This document shows positions 13,267 to 51,805 of a stretch of 64,000 nt of DNA, piece after piece (position 1 is the stretch's first letter; the number at the start of each line of letters is the position of its first letter). Both the position numbers and the translations under genes were made by a program. Source of the DNA: Thermococcus gammatolerans EJ3 (GTDB taxonomy: Archaea; Methanobacteriota_B; Thermococci; Thermococcales; Thermococcaceae). The notes beneath the pieces were generated by a model. The model did not search any database, was not told where the DNA came from, and saw only the letters and a list, made by a program, of their open reading frames with translations. The DNA lies in assembly GCF_000022365.1 (NCBI RefSeq), contig NC_012804.1, positions 1,364,001-1,428,000 of the forward strand, given 5' to 3'.

Positions 13267-15715
13267 AACCGTCTGCAACGGAAAAGCAACCATAGACGTC
13301 ACGGTGAACAACTATGGATGGACCACCGCCGTGGGCACCCTGAAGGCCTACGTCGATGGAAACGCCGGGAACAGCGTGGGCATTGAAGTTGACCCCTACC
13401 ACCCGGAGACCTATACACTCACCGCCCCCGCGGAGCCGGGCGAGCACACCGTTAAGGTCGTTCTCACATATCCGGGAGGGAGTGATTCAATGAACAAAAC
13501 GGTGACACTCCTCAGGGATTCGGACTGCGAGTACCTCAGCGATCAGGAGGAATACGATTACGGAACAAATCCAAACGATCCAGACACGGACGACGATGGT
13601 GTCATAGACTCCAAGGATATGAACCCCCTTGGCGACTACAGGATAAAGATCTACATCCTCAGGGCGAGGGCGCTGGACGACGTTGACAGCGCTTTGGTTG
13701 GCCACAACCCCGCGGACATGAACCTTACCCTCACAGTAAACGGACAGACAAGGACGCTCTTCCTCACAAACGACCAGGACGACAAGGAAAATAAAATCCT
13801 CCCAACAGACGATCCCCTCCTCAACCTTGAGGACTACGCGATAGCCAAAGCCACTTTCGACGTCCCGGACGATAAGGTTTTCATCCCGATAACTTTCCAC
13901 CTTTATGACAAAGAGGGCAATAAAAAGGGAGAGGACATTGACATCTCCCCCGGCCCCGGAACCGTTGCGAGAATAATGTACAACCTCAAAACCGGAACCT
14001 GGAGCGGCGACGATTATCCGGGGGACGAGGAGAGATACTTCGGCTACGGCCACCTGAGCGGCTGCGGCGACGGCTCGTGCGGCGTTTCTTCCCACGATCC
14101 GAAAAAAGACCTCAAGGTCTACGTCAAGTACGAGAGCATCCTGGAAGAGAAAGGAATCAAGGGCGAGATCCTCAACATCACAACCATCCAGGATGTCAAA
14201 GAAGTCAGGGTAGGGGGCGGAAAAGGAGTGCTTTCAATATCCAGGCCGGGTAGCGTTAAAATAGCCACGGTAAGGCTCGAAAACGGCAGTGTGGTTAACG
14301 TCACCCTCGTCAACACCTACAACGCGAAAGTCCTCAGGGTAAATCCGATAAAGCCACCCCAAGGGCCGGACGCTTCTCTGGCCAGGGAAAACACAACCAC
14401 CGTGGAGTTGGTGGGCACGGCTCCGGATGAGCCGTTAAAGGGTGAAGTCGAGATAATCCCGATGGAAGGAGACCTCATTGATCCCGGCCTTGGGGAAGTC
14501 ATCACGTACTCCTCAAGGGAGGAGCACGACGGGGAGATCTGGTTCGTCATCGTGCCGGACGAGCCGGACGGGATACCCTTCTGGCGCGAGGTCGAGCTCA
14601 ACAAAGAGCTGGAAGCCAGCGGAATCTCAGAGAGGTTCGACCCGAGCGACGGCTATTACCTGCTGGAGACAAATTCGGGGGACTTCTGGTCCTGGCTTGA
14701 GCAGTTTTTGAAGTGGACGGACATAAATAACAAAGAGAAACTTGGGGACTACGATGGCGACGGTGTTCCGAACGCCGTCGAGGTCTTGATCGGGAAGGAT
14801 CCGGCGAAGAGGGATATACTCGGCATTGAGCTCACGGTGTCGGTGGAGTGGGACATGAGCGAGGAGGACAAGAGGAACTTAGCTTACAGCATCAGGAAAG
14901 CGAGTGATTTCGTCTACGACCACACGGACGGCTACGCGATGATAACCAGGGTTACGATCTGGGACGACAAGAAGAACTGGGATAAGGCTGATGTGAGGAT
15001 CTACAACACAGGCTGGCAAATTCTAATAATAAATGATGACCACTGGCCTTCCTCTTGGATTGGGGCATACTGGAACTCCACCTTGTTCATAGAGATGCCT
15101 AGAAGATTTTTCAGGTACTCCACAGATTCCAAAGGCGAAATGGGGAGTAGTAAGTGGGGTAAGACTTTAGGACATGAGATAGGTCATTATGTTTTCTGGT
15201 TTTGGGATGAGTATCAAGACTGGAACAGGCATAAATATAAGACTTGGTATACTACACAAATGGCACTATATTATCGGGGTGAAAGTGCATTCGATATAAG
15301 CAGAATTCTCTCCGATAAACTCCTAAGCATACATAGCGTTATGAATAATGAGTGGAAGTGGAGTGAACTGAGCACGCCAGGTGATTACAGTAGTTTTAAA
15401 GAGGATGCAATATACATATGGAGGACTTATTCCCACGCTTGGATTGTGGCAGGATATAAATCATGGGAGTACATGTTGCCAGAGCAATGGGGGAACTTAA
15501 CTCATAAAGACAAATGGCACTGTTCATCGTGGGAAGCGCTGTTTAAGTTCTTAACAGGATATGATAGGCCAGAATGGGTTAGAGGGCCATCCGTAGACAT
15601 TTGTATGGATCCGAATCTTGATGGCTCTTGCGACAAAGCGCTTCCACAAGATTACACTCCAAAAACCGGCCCGTACACTGGTGTTGGCTACTTTATGGAG
15701 GTGGTTTGGGGATGA
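13193..15715 (+). CDS. Large secreted zinc metalloprotease, CLCA-like HExxH...DEY motif, calcium repeats
   Basis: About 840 residues in this frame; its signal peptide is in another frame at 13117. Order: a CARDB-like beta domain (KATIDVTVNNYGWTTAVGTL), a DxDxDG calcium repeat (DPDTDDDGVIDSKDMNP), beta domains, a second calcium repeat (DYDGDGVPNAVEV, nt 14748-14787), then a catalytic region with LGHEIGHYVFWFWDEY (His codon at 15173). HExxH plus DEY at this spacing matches the protease motif of CLCA proteins. It should be an extracellular zinc endopeptidase. The 3' third (from about 15000) is clearly more A/T-rich than the 5' part. The last codons encode KTGPYTGVGYFMEVVWG, found again upstream of five downstream genes. 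Its stop overlaps the next start (ATGA). Confidence 0.8.
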   Translation: MEPQPKPDLIQDMPRPVITGMRVHKTVCNGKATIDVTVNNYGWTTAVGTLKAYVDGNAGNSVGIEVDPYHPETYTLTAPAEPGEHTVKVVLTYPGGSDSMNKTVTLLRDSDCEYLSDQEEYDYGTNPNDPDTDDDGVIDSKDMNPLGDYRIKIYILRARALDDVDSALVGHNPADMNLTLTVNGQTRTLFLTNDQDDKENKILPTDDPLLNLEDYAIAKATFDVPDDKVFIPITFHLYDKEGNKKGEDIDISPGPGTVARIMYNLKTGTWSGDDYPGDEERYFGYGHLSGCGDGSCGVSSHDPKKDLKVYVKYESILEEKGIKGEILNITTIQDVKEVRVGGGKGVLSISRPGSVKIATVRLENGSVVNVTLVNTYNAKVLRVNPIKPPQGPDASLARENTTTVELVGTAPDEPLKGEVEIIPMEGDLIDPGLGEVITYSSREEHDGEIWFVIVPDEPDGIPFWREVELNKELEASGISERFDPSDGYYLLETNSGDFWSWLEQFLKWTDINNKEKLGDYDGDGVPNAVEVLIGKDPAKRDILGIELTVSVEWDMSEEDKRNLAYSIRKASDFVYDHTDGYAMITRVTIWDDKKNWDKADVRIYNTGWQILIINDDHWPSSWIGAYWNSTLFIEMPRRFFRYSTDSKGEMGSSKWGKTLGHEIGHYVFWFWDEYQDWNRHKYKTWYTTQMALYYRGESAFDISRILSDKLLSIHSVMNNEWKWSELSTPGDYSSFKEDAIYIWRTYSHAWIVAGYKSWEYMLPEQWGNLTHKDKWHCSSWEALFKFLTGYDRPEWVRGPSVDICMDPNLDGSCDKALPQDYTPKTGPYTGVGYFMEVVWG
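15641..15715 (+). repeat. Protease-tail element, parent copy (in the protease gene)
   Basis: Encodes LPQDYTPKTG followed by PYTGVGYFMEVVWG and a stop. The end of this coding sequence holds GGAGGTG, the ribosome-binding site for the gene starting at 15712. Related copies occur at 21624, 22547, 23543, 24536 and 25506. Confidence 0.85.
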
Positions 15716-44510: not shown

Positions 44511-44669
44511 GGGGCACTACCCTAAGATTGCTTTTCCTCTTTTCCTAGGGCTTGTTACGGCAGTTAAACAACCGAAAGCTTTAACGTGTAAAAATTCTAT
44601 TATTGTGGACTGACATAACTAAGGATGAAAGTAGGTTTGAGGTTGGCTCAACTTATAGGAGGCAAAAGG

Positions 44670-47246
44670 ATGAAGAGGCTCATCGCGGTGGTGTGGATTG
44701 CCCTGCTCTTGGGGTTTTTGGTGGTTACGCTGAAAATGGCAAAGGCCGAAGATGCAAAGTGGTGGGCGAAAACTTACAGAGGGAAGGCTTACGCGATTGC
44801 TGTTGCTCCAAATGGTGACGTAATAGTTACAGGCTACACTTACAGCTTCGGCGCGGGTAAGAGTGATGTTTGGGTTCTTAGGCTTGAGAAGAATGGCAAT
44901 GTTAAATGGCAGAAGACTTACGGCGGAAGTGACTTAGATAAGGCTACCGCGGTTGCCGTTGCCCTAAATGGGGATATCATAATAGCGGGCTCCACTGAAA
45001 GCTTTGGCGCGGGTAGAAGAGACATTTGGGTTCTTCGTTTGGATGGGGAGGGGGATGTTAAATGGCAAAAAACTTACGGTGGGCGTATCTATGATGACGC
45101 TCATGCGGTTGCAGTTGCTCCGAACGGGGATATCATTGTTCTAGGCTCCACTGAAAGCTTTGGCGCTCCATATCATTCAGACGTTTGGATTCTCAGGCTT
45201 GATGCTAATGGAAACGTTAAATGGCAAAAAACTTACGGCGGGAGTGATTATGATTGGGCTTACGCGGTTGCCATTGCCCCAAACGGGGATATTATTGCCG
45301 CAGGCGGCACTGAACGCTTTGCCGCTGGTATAGTGGATGTTTGGATTCTTCGTTTGGATGAGAACGGTAATGTCAAGTGGCAAAAAACGTACGGTGGGAA
45401 TAGTTATGACAAGGCTACCGCGGTTGCCGTTGTAGAAAACGAGGATATTATTGTCGCAGGGTATTATGGGGCCACAGATTTTCAGGGCGCTGGAGCTGAT
45501 GTTTGGATTCTTCGTTTGGATGAGAACGGTAATGTCAAGTGGCAAACGACTTATGGAGGGCATTACAGGGATAATGCTTACGCTATCGCTGTTACTCCAA
45601 ACGAGGATTTGATAGTAGCAGGCTGCACTGAAAGCTTTGGCACTGGAAATTATGACGCTTGGATTCTCAGGCTTGATAGCAAGGGTAACGTTAAGTGGCA
45701 AAAAACGTACGGCGGAAGTGACGATGATAGCGCTCATAGAGTCGTGGTTGCTCCGAACGGGGATATCATTGTTCTAGGCTCCACTGAAAGCTTTGGCACT
45801 GGATATTATGACACTTGGATTCTCCGTCTTCCGTCGGATGGTAATCTACCCAAGTGCGACTTCTGCGGGGATTCAAATGCCAAAATTAGCGTTCCAGACA
45901 TAAAAGTGGGCAATTTCAGTGTGACTATTATGAATACGAACGCGACCGTGCAAACAACCAACGTTTATCCTCACTCCTCGGAGGATATCGGGGTGGAGAC
46001 ACAATACATTTCCGTTGGAACTATCAGCGTCACCACGAACCCCTCTGGTGCGAAGGTTTACGTTAACGGAACATACATCGGAGCAACTCCCCTTACTACG
46101 AACTTATCAGTAGGAACCTACGAGATTACACTTAAAATGAAGAATTACAAGAATTACACAACGACTGTAGCAATAAACCCTAATGAGGAAGTGGAACTCA
46201 ACGTGATCCTAACACCCTTGCCAGCCCATTTAACACTCAACTCAACCCCCTCCGGGGTTGAGATTTATGTTAACGGCACTTATAGGGGAGAAACTCCGGT
46301 GACCTTGAAGCTTTCTCCAGGCACGTACACTGTAAAATTCATCAAAGACGAGTATGAGAACTACACCATGAGCGTTACCCTTTCGGCAGGAGAGGCCAAG
46401 AATATCTCTGTGACACTAAATCTTGCCTACGGTTACCTAAGCATTGAATCCTCACCTTCCAAAGCTGAAGTTTACGTTGATGATAATTACATTGGCAAGA
46501 CACCAATTGACCAATATAAACTATCTACTGGTGTGCATGAGGTCAAGGTGGAGAAGAGTAATTATAACTCCCTCACAAAGATGGTTACACTAAACTCCAG
46601 CGAGAAAACGAAACTCAATGTGATCCTAACGCCATTACCAGCGCATTTAATGGTTAACTCAAACCCCTCTGGAGCGGTGGTCTACATTAATGGAACCTAC
46701 AAAGGAAAGACTCCGTTGACTTCGGAGCTTGAACCTAATACTTACAACCTGAGGGTTTCGAAAGAAGGTTATGCAAATTACACTACAACAGTAATCATTA
46801 ACCCGGGAGAGAATAAAACCATAAACGTCGAGTTGGAGCCAATGATCGCCCACATTGAAGTTTCCTCGGATCCAGCCGGCGCGAAAGTTTACGTTAACGG
46901 GACTTATAAGGGAACGACCCCATTGACTTTGGAGCTTGGATCTGGGTCCTATAAAGTAAGGGCGACCAAGGAGGGTTATGAGGATTACGTGATAACAGTT
47001 GAGTTGAAGGCTGGTGAGTCCAAAGAAATCACGGCTCAATTAAAAGAAAAATCCACAACTACGACAACCACAACAACGGTCGCTACTTCTACGTCGGCCG
47101 GCGAGACTACAACGACAGCCACGTCGAACGGTAGTGGAACGACTAAAACAACCTCTCCAAAGGAAGGTGGTGGAATATGCGGACCGGCACTGGTTATTGC
47201 CCTAGCCTTAGTTCCCATCCTCCACAGAAAACGCAAACACAGGTAA
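44670..47246 (+). CDS. Cell-surface protein: beta-propeller, five PEGA domains, CGP-CTERM anchor
   Basis: 858 residues from ATG 44670 (GGAGG upstream). Signal peptide RLIAVVWIALLLGFLVVTL; seven propeller blades repeating NGNVKWQKTYGGSDxD and VAPNGDIIVxGSTESFGAG (about residues 35-400); a linker with CDFCGDSN; five PEGA repeats (SGAKVYVNGTYIGATPLT and variants, residues about 460-790); a Thr-rich stretch; and GGGICGPALVIALALVPILH, the Thermococcales CGP-CTERM sorting signal. Many Asn-Gly-Thr sequons in the PEGA part suggest N-glycosylation. It should be anchored outside the cell; ligand unknown. A short hairpin plus T run follows. Confidence 0.88.
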   Translation: MKRLIAVVWIALLLGFLVVTLKMAKAEDAKWWAKTYRGKAYAIAVAPNGDVIVTGYTYSFGAGKSDVWVLRLEKNGNVKWQKTYGGSDLDKATAVAVALNGDIIIAGSTESFGAGRRDIWVLRLDGEGDVKWQKTYGGRIYDDAHAVAVAPNGDIIVLGSTESFGAPYHSDVWILRLDANGNVKWQKTYGGSDYDWAYAVAIAPNGDIIAAGGTERFAAGIVDVWILRLDENGNVKWQKTYGGNSYDKATAVAVVENEDIIVAGYYGATDFQGAGADVWILRLDENGNVKWQTTYGGHYRDNAYAIAVTPNEDLIVAGCTESFGTGNYDAWILRLDSKGNVKWQKTYGGSDDDSAHRVVVAPNGDIIVLGSTESFGTGYYDTWILRLPSDGNLPKCDFCGDSNAKISVPDIKVGNFSVTIMNTNATVQTTNVYPHSSEDIGVETQYISVGTISVTTNPSGAKVYVNGTYIGATPLTTNLSVGTYEITLKMKNYKNYTTTVAINPNEEVELNVILTPLPAHLTLNSTPSGVEIYVNGTYRGETPVTLKLSPGTYTVKFIKDEYENYTMSVTLSAGEAKNISVTLNLAYGYLSIESSPSKAEVYVDDNYIGKTPIDQYKLSTGVHEVKVEKSNYNSLTKMVTLNSSEKTKLNVILTPLPAHLMVNSNPSGAVVYINGTYKGKTPLTSELEPNTYNLRVSKEGYANYTTTVIINPGENKTINVELEPMIAHIEVSSDPAGAKVYVNGTYKGTTPLTLELGSGSYKVRATKEGYEDYVITVELKAGESKEITAQLKEKSTTTTTTTTVATSTSAGETTTTATSNGSGTTKTTSPKEGGGICGPALVIALALVPILHRKRKHR

Positions 47247-48924: not shown

Positions 48925-49182
48925 TTAAACTTGAAAAAACTCGAATTTCGTTCTTTTCCAGTCCCTGCAAAAAGTTATTGCGACAATATGCTTGTCCTCC
49001 ATTGTAAACTCTAAATAGTGCCATTTTTCTAATATTTTTTCTTTTGGGATGCCGTATCTTTTGCTTAATTCTTCGAGTTTCTTTTCGTACTCTTCTCGCT
49101 CGTTTCTCTCGTCCGCTTTTTCTTCTTCCCTCCGAAGATGAACATCCCTGCCAACGGCAAAAGCGACAAGGACATCACCCAT
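48925..49182 (-). CDS. Short protein, probable frameshifted N-terminal paralogue of the 51749 gene
   Basis: 85 codons if read from the ATG at 49182. The DNA before and around the start is very similar to that of the gene at 51749, but there the frame is another: a TTG at 49169 preceded by GGGTGAT would give LSLLPLAGMFIFGGKKKK, matching MSLLPLSGMFIFGGKKKKK. That frame meets the present one only if the A5 run (49117-49121, minus strand) had one more A. The rest (EEYEKKLEELSKRYGIPKEK) resembles VFQELAKKYDLPVEI of the paralogue. No homology is seen after about residue 60. Probably a truncated relic. Confidence 0.45.
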   Translation of the reverse strand: MGDVLVAFAVGRDVHLRREEEKADERNEREEYEKKLEELSKRYGIPKEKILEKWHYLEFTMEDKHIVAITFCRDWKRTKFEFFQV

Positions 49183-49219
49183 CAAACTTCGCCTTCATGG
49201 GAGATAAGCCTTTCGAAGC

Positions 49220-50068
49220 TTAAAGGCCGGCACTGGCTATCTCCTCAAGCTCCCTCAGCCGCCTCTGGAAGAGCCTCTCCTCGAAGACCCCAAAGCCCAC
49301 GTAGTTGGAGATTATCGCCTGGATATCGTTCTTGTACGGGCTGTCTTCGAGAACCCGATAAATGGCGGTTGGCCTGTAGGCCTTAACGCGGTAGAGCTCC
49401 CTCAGGACGTCCCTCCTCAGGTAGAATCCCTCGCCGCGCCACCTGTCTCGTCTCCTGTAAAACCCCATAACGAGGGAGTAAACGTCAACCACGTCCTTCC
49501 AGTGCTTTGCTCGCTTGTCGTCGGGATAGTCTGTGATGTTTGTGTAGATGTCGAACTTCAAAGCTAAAATCGCCTCTGGAAAGGCTACGTCGAGCTTTCC
49601 GTCCGCTATTGGAGTGCCCTCGAAGTCATTCACGGCAAAGTGAACCCTGGAATGGTAGCGGTTCGCGAAGAGTGGCGATGCAAAGGGCGTATCAAAGCTA
49701 AGCCCCGACGGCCTCTCGTCGAAGAGAAAGTCCACCTTCACTTCCTCTCTGACGATGAAGTCTTCAACCGGCTTCACGAACCTAAAGCCGGCGCTTTGAA
49801 AGCCGAGGTTTTCCATGACCTCCCTGATTTCGTCGAAGCTCTCCGCTTTCGCAAGGAAATCTATGTCAATGGACGGAACTCCGCGGTAGCCGAGAAAGTT
49901 GTCCACCCAGTAGTAAACGCCCCATCCACCAACGAGAACCACCTTTCCCTTCAGCTCCCGGGCGATGTCAAACATTGCCCCAATGGATTCCCTAATGACC
50001 CTGTTTCCGTAGCTCCTCGAATCGTACATCTCGATGGCGATATCGCTGGAGAGCTCAAGCCTCCTCAT
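49220..50068 (-). CDS. AbiEii-like nucleotidyltransferase toxin
   Basis: 282 residues from ATG 50068, with GGGTGGGAAAG upstream. VVLVGGWGVYYWV and SIDIDFLAKAESFDEI are the Gly-Gly and DxD elements of the DNA-polymerase-beta-like nucleotidyltransferase fold in AbiEii/Sav1826 toxins; EVKVDFLFDE holds the third acid and ILALKFDIYTNITDYPDDKR a KxxD/HxxD-type helix. Its start lies inside the upstream gene (14-bp overlap), the usual order antitoxin then toxin. Family members block growth by modifying tRNA or similar targets. Activity here is inferred. Confidence 0.75.
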   Translation of the reverse strand: MRRLELSSDIAIEMYDSRSYGNRVIRESIGAMFDIARELKGKVVLVGGWGVYYWVDNFLGYRGVPSIDIDFLAKAESFDEIREVMENLGFQSAGFRFVKPVEDFIVREEVKVDFLFDERPSGLSFDTPFASPLFANRYHSRVHFAVNDFEGTPIADGKLDVAFPEAILALKFDIYTNITDYPDDKRAKHWKDVVDVYSLVMGFYRRRDRWRGEGFYLRRDVLRELYRVKAYRPTAIYRVLEDSPYKNDIQAIISNYVGFGVFEERLFQRRLRELEEIASAGL

Positions 50069-50654
50069 CTTTCCCACCCTTGATGATGGAAACCACGGTT
50101 TCAAAAACGTCATTAAATAGCCTTGCGTACATCCCCTGAACGAGAGTATCTGCCACAATCATCCCCCAGCTCGGGATGTAGTAGCCGCTGAGCTCCTTTC
50201 GGATTCTGAAGTAGAACTCGTCGTAGATGTAGAGCTTGAAGGGGTAGCCGTTGGGGTCTTTGAGCTCCATGACCTCCTCAAACCTATCGGCGGTCGTGTA
50301 GAGGATTCCGCCCGCGGGGCTGATTATCTTACCGAGGAGCCAGAGCGCGGAGTTTCCGGAGAAGAGCACGAGCTCCCTGAGGTCGTAGTCCGGGATGAGC
50401 TTAACAGTCGCGTAGCCAAGGGAGCCCAATATTCTCTCCTTGTCCCCGGCCCATTTGAAGAGAAAGCCCTTCCTGTCAAGAAAGACGACCCTTCCCCCGA
50501 CGACCGTTACGTAGCCCTCCCTCACGAGAGACCTCACGACCTGGTAGGTGTAGGTGTAGTTCAGCCCCGTTATTCGGGCAATCTCGGGTATTCGAAGCCC
50601 CTCTCGGTCAAACATCACGCTGTATATCTTCTCCCTCGACACTGGCGGTCTCAT
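50055..50654 (-). CDS. AbiEi-like winged-helix antitoxin/regulator
   Basis: 199 residues from ATG 50654 (GTG 50663 also possible). A winged-helix domain at the N-terminus (SVMFDREGLRIPEIARITGL, YTYQVVRSLVREGYVTVV) is followed by an alpha/beta domain as in AbiEi antitoxins. Its promoter (TATA ctttttaaag, 50684-50693) is bracketed by two pairs of ATTAGC/GCTAAT half-sites, fitting autorepression. Paired with the nucleotidyltransferase gene just downstream. Confidence 0.72.
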   Translation of the reverse strand: MRPPVSREKIYSVMFDREGLRIPEIARITGLNYTYTYQVVRSLVREGYVTVVGGRVVFLDRKGFLFKWAGDKERILGSLGYATVKLIPDYDLRELVLFSGNSALWLLGKIISPAGGILYTTADRFEEVMELKDPNGYPFKLYIYDEFYFRIRKELSGYYIPSWGMIVADTLVQGMYARLFNDVFETVVSIIKGGKDEEA

Positions 50655-50663
50655 GGGAACCAC

Positions 50664-50712
50664 ATTAGCAATATTAGTAAAACCTTTTTAAAGATTTGCT
50701 AATTTCGCTAAT
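50664..50712. promoter_or_regulatory. Operator/promoter of the AbiE-like pair: phased inverted half-sites around a TATA box
   Basis: ATTAGC (50664) and ATTAGT (50673) on one side and GCTAAT (50698) and GCTAAT (50707) on the other, each pair spaced 9 bp start to start and inverted relative to the other pair. Between them lies the palindromic TATA element CTTTTTAAAG. Binding of a dimeric winged-helix protein here would block TBP/TFB. Confidence 0.7.
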
Positions 50713-51412
50713 CCCCGAACCTTTTAATCCCCTCAATATCGCCCCGCTGAACCAGCCTGAGGAGCTTGACCGCGTAGAAAACTTCCACCGCGTTGGCCTC
50801 ATCGTCAAGAAGGCCGTCTATCATCTTCAAGAGCTCTTTCTCAGCCTTTTCCATTGCCTTCTCCGAGAAGTCCGAGAACTCAAGGGCCTTCGCTATCGAG
50901 AGAACTTCGGGCGGGATTTCTTCACTGATGACCTTCTTGGTTTCTGGGTACTTTGGTTTCCGCGGTTCTATTTTCTTCATTCCCCTCTTTTTGGCGGTTT
51001 TTGGTTTCTTTCCCGTTACCTCCGCAATCGTGTTTCTCAGTTCCTCGAGCTCCTTTGTGACATCTATTCCCGCTGCTTTCAGAGTTCGAACGGGATCTTT
51101 AGTATCTGGTGAGAATGCCTCTTCCATCGCCCTTAGGTGCTTAATGTTGTGGTCCTTCGGCCACATCTTGTTGATGAGCTTTATCGTGGCAGGGATGACT
51201 TCTTTTATTGCTTTCTGCGTAGACCTTGCGACTGTTGGTCCAACTACCTCGCGCTCCTGTAGTTTTTTCACGACGAGCTTTGCGAATTCTGATGGGTTCT
51301 TCTCAACATCTTCTACTGTTTTTCCCTGCTTTACAAAATATTCGTATATTGCATCGCCTACTGCCCATCCAATGTCTTTATGCTCCTTGCCGACGTGGTT
51401 TGCTATAAGCAC
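50708..51412 (-). CDS. Helical protein of unknown function, main part of a frameshifted gene
   Basis: 234 codons from a GTG at 51412, but the frame is open and plausible further upstream (GYHILHGALAVLIANHVGKE spans the putative start), so 51412 is not a true start. Helical, charged, with a Lys-rich middle (TGKKPKTAKKRGMKKIEPRK) and a helical end. It looks like the 3' part of one gene of roughly 340 codons that begins at 51749; two shifts, near 51456 and 51540, break it. No family recognised. The last codons overlap the outer AbiE operator half-site. Confidence 0.55.
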   Translation of the reverse strand: MLIANHVGKEHKDIGWAVGDAIYEYFVKQGKTVEDVEKNPSEFAKLVVKKLQEREVVGPTVARSTQKAIKEVIPATIKLINKMWPKDHNIKHLRAMEEAFSPDTKDPVRTLKAAGIDVTKELEELRNTIAEVTGKKPKTAKKRGMKKIEPRKPKYPETKKVISEEIPPEVLSIAKALEFSDFSEKAMEKAEKELLKMIDGLLDDEANAVEVFYAVKLLRLVQRGDIEGIKRFGD

Positions 51413-51533: not shown

Positions 51534-51749
51534 CTAGTATTTTTTTACCCTTTCTATTTTTCCCTCCGGATCCATTCTTTTGATGAACTCAATGTAACCG
51601 TTATGTGATACGTGCGCATCGTCCAATGCTTCTATAATCTCTACCGGCAGATCGTACTTCTTCGCGAGTTCCTGAAACACTTCTGCCCAGCTCTTCTTTT
51701 TCTTCTTTCCTCCGAAGATGAACATCCCTGACAGCGGCAAAAGCGACAA
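51534..51749 (-). CDS. N-terminal part of the frameshifted gene at 50708-51749
   Basis: Probable TTG start at 51749 after AGGTGGT (GTG codons just upstream are alternatives): MSLLPLSGMFIFGGKKKKK, then SWAEVFQELAKKYDLPVEII and IEFIKRMDPEGKIERVKK. It stops after a run of seven A (51540-51546, read on the minus strand). With one more A the frame would continue as ILDVKETSDLWAARAVRDHE, an open stretch up to about 51460. The 5' end is duplicated near 49182. Function unknown. Confidence 0.55.
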   Translation of the reverse strand: MSLLPLSGMFIFGGKKKKKSWAEVFQELAKKYDLPVEIIEALDDAHVSHNGYIEFIKRMDPEGKIERVKKY

Positions 51750-51805
51750 TCTCACCACCTATCAAACTACGGCGGAAGAAGAGAAAAGGGTTTCGAAAAA
51801 AGGCC

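Follow-up and report, generated by a model that had tools for sequence, protein, structure and literature searches.

The window (the whole stretch of 64,000 nucleotides that was analysed) belongs to a complete 2.05-Mb genome of the family Thermococcaceae. It carries a candidate toxin-antitoxin pair transcribed on the minus strand, and a 49-bp putative operator lies immediately 5′ of the winged-helix gene. The features are as follows.

50055-50654, minus strand: candidate antitoxin and autorepressor of 199 aa, with a winged helix-turn-helix at about residues 3-58 (recognition helix 33-45) and a C-terminal domain.
49220-50068, minus strand: candidate nucleotidyltransferase toxin of 282 aa, the start of which overlaps the antitoxin end by 14 nt.
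50664-50712, 49 bp: whole four-half-site operator, from pattern match, fixed-geometry score and conservation in relatives.
50664-50678, plus strand: promoter-downstream arm ATTAGC-AAT-ATTAGT, comprising ATTAGC at 50664-50669 and ATTAGT at 50673-50678 in 9-bp phase (sequence, pattern match).
50698-50712, plus strand: promoter-upstream arm GCTAAT-TTC-GCTAAT, comprising GCTAAT at 50698-50703 and GCTAAT at 50707-50712 in 9-bp phase (sequence, pattern match).
50684-50693: palindromic core CTTTTTAAAG, a TATA-like box with its dyad centre on base 50688 (sequence, dyad analysis).

The earlier note had described four half-sites around this core at 50664-50712, and the description is correct to the base. 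The 9-bp phase is exact in both arms, and the gapped pattern occurs once in the window and in none of 100 dinucleotide shuffles. When up to two mismatches are allowed, a single arm matches the two arms of the operator and one weak site at 15016. On a four-unit score with fixed geometry the operator reaches 45 out of 54; the next best position in the 64,000 bases has 33, and the next best of the 56 gene upstream regions of the window has 30. The labels TATA and BRE at the core are presumed from the archaeal consensus.

The upstream ORF 50708-51412 has its TAG stop codon at 50708-50710, within the outermost half-site. By eye, this ORF and ORF 51534-51758, which are in different frames and have coding-like sequence between them, resemble a decayed longer gene. 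A direct repeat of 102 nt (49116-49217 and 51696-51797, 81% identical, 2580 bp apart) brackets the pair and its upstream ORF, and spans the starts of the minus-strand ORFs 48925-49185 and 51534-51758. The core 50684-50693 is palindromic with AAA/TTT on either side, so that the promoter could fire in both directions; a plus-strand transcript would enter the upstream ORF antisense.

Judging from its motifs and its model, the 282-aa protein would be the toxin. The residues G47, G48 and S66-x-D68-x-D70 are, by eye, invariant in 13 of 13 aligned relatives (the alignment omits two of the 15 intact toxins, L015 and L020, for their start choice). The motif I-II pattern hGG...DhD is present, with the MenT serine two residues ahead. 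The gap from GG to DhD is longer than the quoted spacing of x9-13, as is also reported for AbiEii (PMC3985639, partial text). A Foldseek search with the toxin model finds Rv1045 (E 1.8e-4), and VIA gives MenT1 (Z 13.7, rmsd 3.3, 171 aligned), Rv1045 (Z 13.5, 4.1, 222) and MenT4 (Z 12.4, 4.2, 215), with MenT3 also listed (MenT1/MenT3/MenT4 at Z 12-14), followed by ANT(2″) at Z 11.1 and LnuA at Z 9.7. The model also matches AbiEi 6y8q (VIA Z 10.1), in line with the nucleotidyltransferase-like C-terminal domain described for AbiEi (PMC7319586, partial text). The AbiEii model PF08843 has no match in the window toxin, nor in G000, and matches 3 of 13 toxin relatives weakly (best E 3e-4). Of 94 Thermococcaceae genomes, 55 carry canonical AbiEii (PF08843), and the genome of the window is not among them.

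The antitoxin matches the Pfam models TrmB (26.2 bits) and HTH_IclR (24.1 bits), both over their cut-offs. Its AlphaFold2 model has a pLDDT of 90.8, contains the helices and the wing, and gives VIA Z scores of up to 7.0 over residues 1-80. AbiEi is not among the 8 Pfam families that match the window antitoxin at E≤1, nor among 25 of the 29 Pfam families listed for the 26 members. PADLOC gives a weak HTH match only. A profile comparison with hhalign finds weak similarity to six canonical thermococcal AbiEi proteins over both domains (E 2.4e-4, probability 44%, 162 columns), and E 0.14 with two others. The VIA matches listed are taken up by the winged helix and contain no AbiEi entry, so that this absence says nothing either way. 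A derivation of the antitoxin C-terminal domain from the toxin is not supported by profile comparison (E 0.0075, in an unrelated region).

Plain AbiE assignment is rejected, since the AbiEi and AbiEii Pfam models fail on the window proteins. The pair is AbiE/MenAT-like, as the match of the toxin model to MenT/AbiEii toxins indicates, and is not filed as AbiE because it misses the curated models. The name 'AbiE-like' in the earlier note thus stands in part: the toxin fold and the weak similarity of the antitoxin to thermococcal AbiEi agree with it, whereas the Pfam matches do not.

Antitoxin homologues are present in 24 of 94 Thermococcaceae genomes. They form 30 loci, 26 of which are start-intact copies and were used; the fragments L023, L024 and L030 and the copy L029, which has lost its 5′ end, were excluded, and matches without a locus number are fragments. 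All 15 intact toxins found in the 94 genomes by a search started from the toxin adjoin an intact antitoxin. Conversely, the 26 intact antitoxins are accompanied by an intact toxin (15), a frameshifted toxin (2), a remnant or no toxin (8), or a contig end (1). In the class III loci without a toxin (L013, L014; the classes are defined below), the next ORF resembles, by eye, the repeat-rich protein at 44625-47246 of the window. No convincing homologue was found beyond Thermococcaceae in 115 genomes of the phylum (weak HTH matches only), and none in the viral contigs, plasmids and phages searched. The first scan of genome contigs gave no locus and the second gave 10, all from Thermococci except L094, a metagenome-assembled genome labelled 'Archaeoglobus'. 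L094 carries a class III module with an operator region almost identical to that of the Thermococci contig L093, and is probably a case of mis-binning or recent transfer.

The DNA upstream of the 26 start-intact antitoxins falls into four operator classes. Class I has ATTAGY units and comprises the window and two relatives from other genera, L002 and L003, with antitoxins 71-72% identical to that of the window. Class II has ATCAAC-like units (9 copies, antitoxin identity 65-70%), class III ATAACA-like units (6 copies, 44-47%), and class IV GTATCC-like units (8 copies, about 31-35%). The earlier note had named absence of the repeats from close orthologues as a refutation; the check was passed, as the two nearest orthologues have the same half-sites.

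When anchored on the dyad, the units occupy the same places in all four classes: they recur every 9 bp and form a mirror image around the TATA-like box. The centre of symmetry is a single base in classes I-III and lies between two bases in class IV. Among lags 4-14, lag 9 gives the best self-match in every class (0.83, 0.78, 0.61 and 0.78 for I-IV). Counted by hand, the centre-to-centre distance in classes I-III is 25 bp for the inner units and 43 bp, or about 4.1 turns, for the outer ones; in class IV both are one less. With the geometry fixed from the window, 25 of the 26 upstream regions score 36-50, higher than each of 300 shuffles of the same region, while the class III copy L017 (score 28) does not show the four units at the corresponding place. 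Conservation sets in at the distal unit's outer edge, 24 bases before the dyad. There the mean pairwise identity, taken in a 9-bp window starting at -24 with each class aligned on its dyad, steps from 0.42 to 0.98, 0.30 to 0.74 and 0.61 to 0.81 in classes II-IV, and from 0.48 to 0.78 in class I, where the upstream values are uninformative because two of the only three members are near-copies. The 36 bases upstream of this edge show no comparable conservation in classes II-IV. Many modules of classes II and IV are preceded by a short motif like ATGAGYGAGGC (the upstream regions of L005, L006, L007, L009, L012, L020, L024, L026 and L028).

A C at position 6 is common to the aligned units in most copies, so that the four codes look like the products of drift from one ancestral site. 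The AT-rich composition of the region, and the fact that L002 and L003 are 94.5% identical to each other, would fit a promoter coincidence or shared ancestry without function. That reading has a negligible chance of being right in view of one geometry kept in four different sequences, the empty shuffles, and scores of at most 30 in the 55 other upstream regions of the window.

Pattern scans of the 94 genomes find 3 sites of class I, 10 of class II and 9 of class IV. All 22 are directly 5′ of an antitoxin gene (20 start-intact, 2 remnants, G046:C60 and G039:C1:152680). As the patterns were built from these sites, their recovery is partly by construction, and the informative part is only the absence elsewhere: class I, II and IV patterns have no site away from antitoxin genes in the 94 genomes, and reversed-pattern controls have none at all. 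A wider regulon is rejected on the same grounds, no class I, II or IV operator being found off the antitoxin. The limitation of these three classes to the antitoxin promoter fits an autorepressor with one target. Upstream regions of ten canonical thermococcal AbiE loci (from 14 fetched; L102, L104, L105 and L106 were left out as near-copies) score 23-35 on the four-unit scale and have no comparable four-unit operator.

The half-site class tracks the N-terminal DNA-binding domain of the antitoxin. Recognition residues 33-38 vary by class (YTYTYQ or YIYTYQ; YKYVFQ; YPYVHR; RPYLYR). Y35 is the same in all copies, and R41 in almost all. Since the domain adjoins the operator, travel together is also expected from linkage. 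The earlier note's proposal that the winged-helix protein of the pair is the likely reader of the site gains from both results, i.e. half-sites limited to antitoxins in the 94 genomes and changing with the DNA-binding domain. Host regulators in archaea often bind palindromes that overlie promoters, and the site could be bound by such a regulator instead of the antitoxin. The archaeal autorepressor YtrA of Sulfolobus, which covers its own promoter, may be counted on that side (PMC6746942, partial text). We regard another regulator as very unlikely, given sites of classes I, II and IV only before the antitoxin gene and half-sites that change with its DNA-binding domain.

It is even harder to see the repeats as the terminus of a mobile module or as a site of recombination. 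The homology among class members does start near the outer half-site and the contexts of the modules differ, but in all classes the repeats keep a fixed position relative to the TATA-like box and the start codon. The specific candidate of a mobile-element end or attachment site was rejected, as a partner repeat is absent at the toxin end and there is one site per genome.

L002 and L003 look mosaic, with a class I operator and DNA-binding domain joined to a class II C-terminal domain and toxin. Their antitoxins are 44-49% identical to class II antitoxins over residues 1-58 and 84-93% beyond, versus 64% and 74-76% for the window antitoxin. Their toxins share 82-86% identity with those of class II and 72% with that of the window. 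At this boundary the silent-site difference between L003 and L009 drops, with 0.81 before it and 0.37 after it. In 17 of 18 comparisons, DNA similarity to class II starts between +169 and +180, counted from the first base of the antitoxin gene, the exception being the alignment of L002 and L010, which reaches back to +1. In loci that have a toxin, the similarity continues to its end. In these two loci, where the antitoxin domains disagree, the operator class matches the DNA-binding domain.

The simplest account of these sequences is that an operator and DNA-binding domain were swapped onto a shared C-terminal domain and toxin. Maximum chi-square tests favour the swap (p 0.001-0.012 in 18 of 18 comparisons, breaks at columns 50-64), with one of three class II controls reaching p 0.014. 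AU tests on trees of the N- and C-terminal domains leave both groupings standing (p 0.34 to 0.47). Four genomes have two start-intact antitoxins (G083, G084, G059 and G052), and in all four the operator classes differ. This tendency is suggestive of insulation but, with a probability of about 0.3 estimated by hand from the class frequencies, not significant. A broader proposal is that operator and DNA-binding domain form an exchangeable cassette, with at least four codes in one TATA-centred frame, swapped by recombination onto other C-terminal domains and toxins and insulating modules that reside together. It is tentative, and we give it somewhat less than even weight.

The 49-bp site is very probably the autoregulatory operator of a two-gene toxin-antitoxin module, with the antitoxin repressing its own promoter. 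The winged helix of the antitoxin would read a half-site of about 6 bp that recurs every 9 bp. Two half-sites lie head to tail on each side of the TATA-like box, with the two pairs facing each other, so that up to four subunits could bind, perhaps cooperatively. By general archaeal promoter rules, the AAA beside the proximal unit would be the BRE, and transcription would start close to where the downstream arm ends on its outer side. A fully occupied site would then hide BRE, TATA and start. The cooperative binding and the block of TBP/TFB proposed in the earlier note are compatible with this layout. An abundant antitoxin would occupy the DNA from about -50 to the expected start site and exclude TBP/TFB and polymerase, keeping both genes silent, and a drop in its level would derepress the operon. 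Steric hindrance of this kind is common among archaeal repressors (PMC6746942, partial text).

The number of subunits may be smaller. Two antitoxin monomers, one per 18-bp arm, would suffice if the 9-bp repeat were a less favoured register or were contacted by the C-terminal domain. Bacterial AbiEi offers a precedent: two inverted repeats of 23 bp, separated by 3 bp, are bound by two monomers, and the full-length protein is needed (PMC7319586, partial text). In classes II and III, moreover, the outer units are the weaker ones. This arrangement is rather unlikely, since the outer unit repeats the inner one at a 9-bp lag in four sequence classes, which points to one reading head used twice.

Autorepression via inverted repeats is established for AbiEi and Rv2827c, as described in PMC3985639 and PMC7319586. 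In the AbiE system of Streptococcus agalactiae a winged-helix antitoxin precedes a nucleotidyltransferase toxin, and inverted repeats over the promoter are bound by the autorepressing antitoxin (PMC3985639, PMC7319586), which resembles the gene order and the putative operator of the window. It differs in having two 23-bp repeats 3 bp apart at a bacterial promoter, whereas the window has four 9-bp units around a TATA-like box and proteins without an AbiEi/AbiEii Pfam match. Rv2827c/Rv2826c (MenAT4) of M. tuberculosis also has four repeats per promoter and an autoregulating antitoxin, and MenT4 is a fold match of the window toxin (Z 12.4). It differs from the TATA-centred mirror of 9-bp direct repeats seen here in that its 23-bp inverted repeats form two sets, span about 130 bp and show negative cooperativity (PMC7319586, partial text). 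YtrA(Sa) of Sulfolobus acidocaldarius has a palindrome with flanking half-sites, the secondary ones being weaker, and hindrance of polymerase is proposed. In contrast, it belongs to the GntR family, its site is downstream of TATA over the start site, and it does not belong to a toxin-antitoxin pair (PMC6746942).

PygAT from Pyrococcus yayanosii is, like the window pair, an antitoxin-toxin pair from Thermococcales, and it is of the COG5340/COG2253 kind (PMC5126054, PMC11375011). It differs in being annotated by conserved domains as canonical AbiEi/AbiEii. The earlier note's statement that no archaeal AbiE operator had been described is doubtful, since PygAT is cited as a functional archaeal system of the AbiE kind (PMC11375011, partial text). 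The abstract of Li et al. 2018 (Extremophiles 22:347) reportedly describes binding of PygA to the pygAT promoter in P. yayanosii. A T. barophilus relative of PygAT was looked for in G086, where the two canonical pairs fetched lack the reported lengths. A literature search that covered few subscription papers found neither a four-half-site, TATA-centred operator of an archaeal toxin-antitoxin system nor the operator classes of this family.

Autorepression keeps toxin-antitoxin pairs balanced, and it is hardly worked out in archaea, where promoters use TBP/TFB. The occurrence of one operator frame in four natural spellings, each with its matching protein, means that a small set of proteins and 49-bp DNAs could test specificity. 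Such a set bears on how winged-helix specificity changes, how many subunits bind, and whether related modules in one cell are insulated. The mosaic of L002 and L003 suggests that specificity is able to move as one unit.
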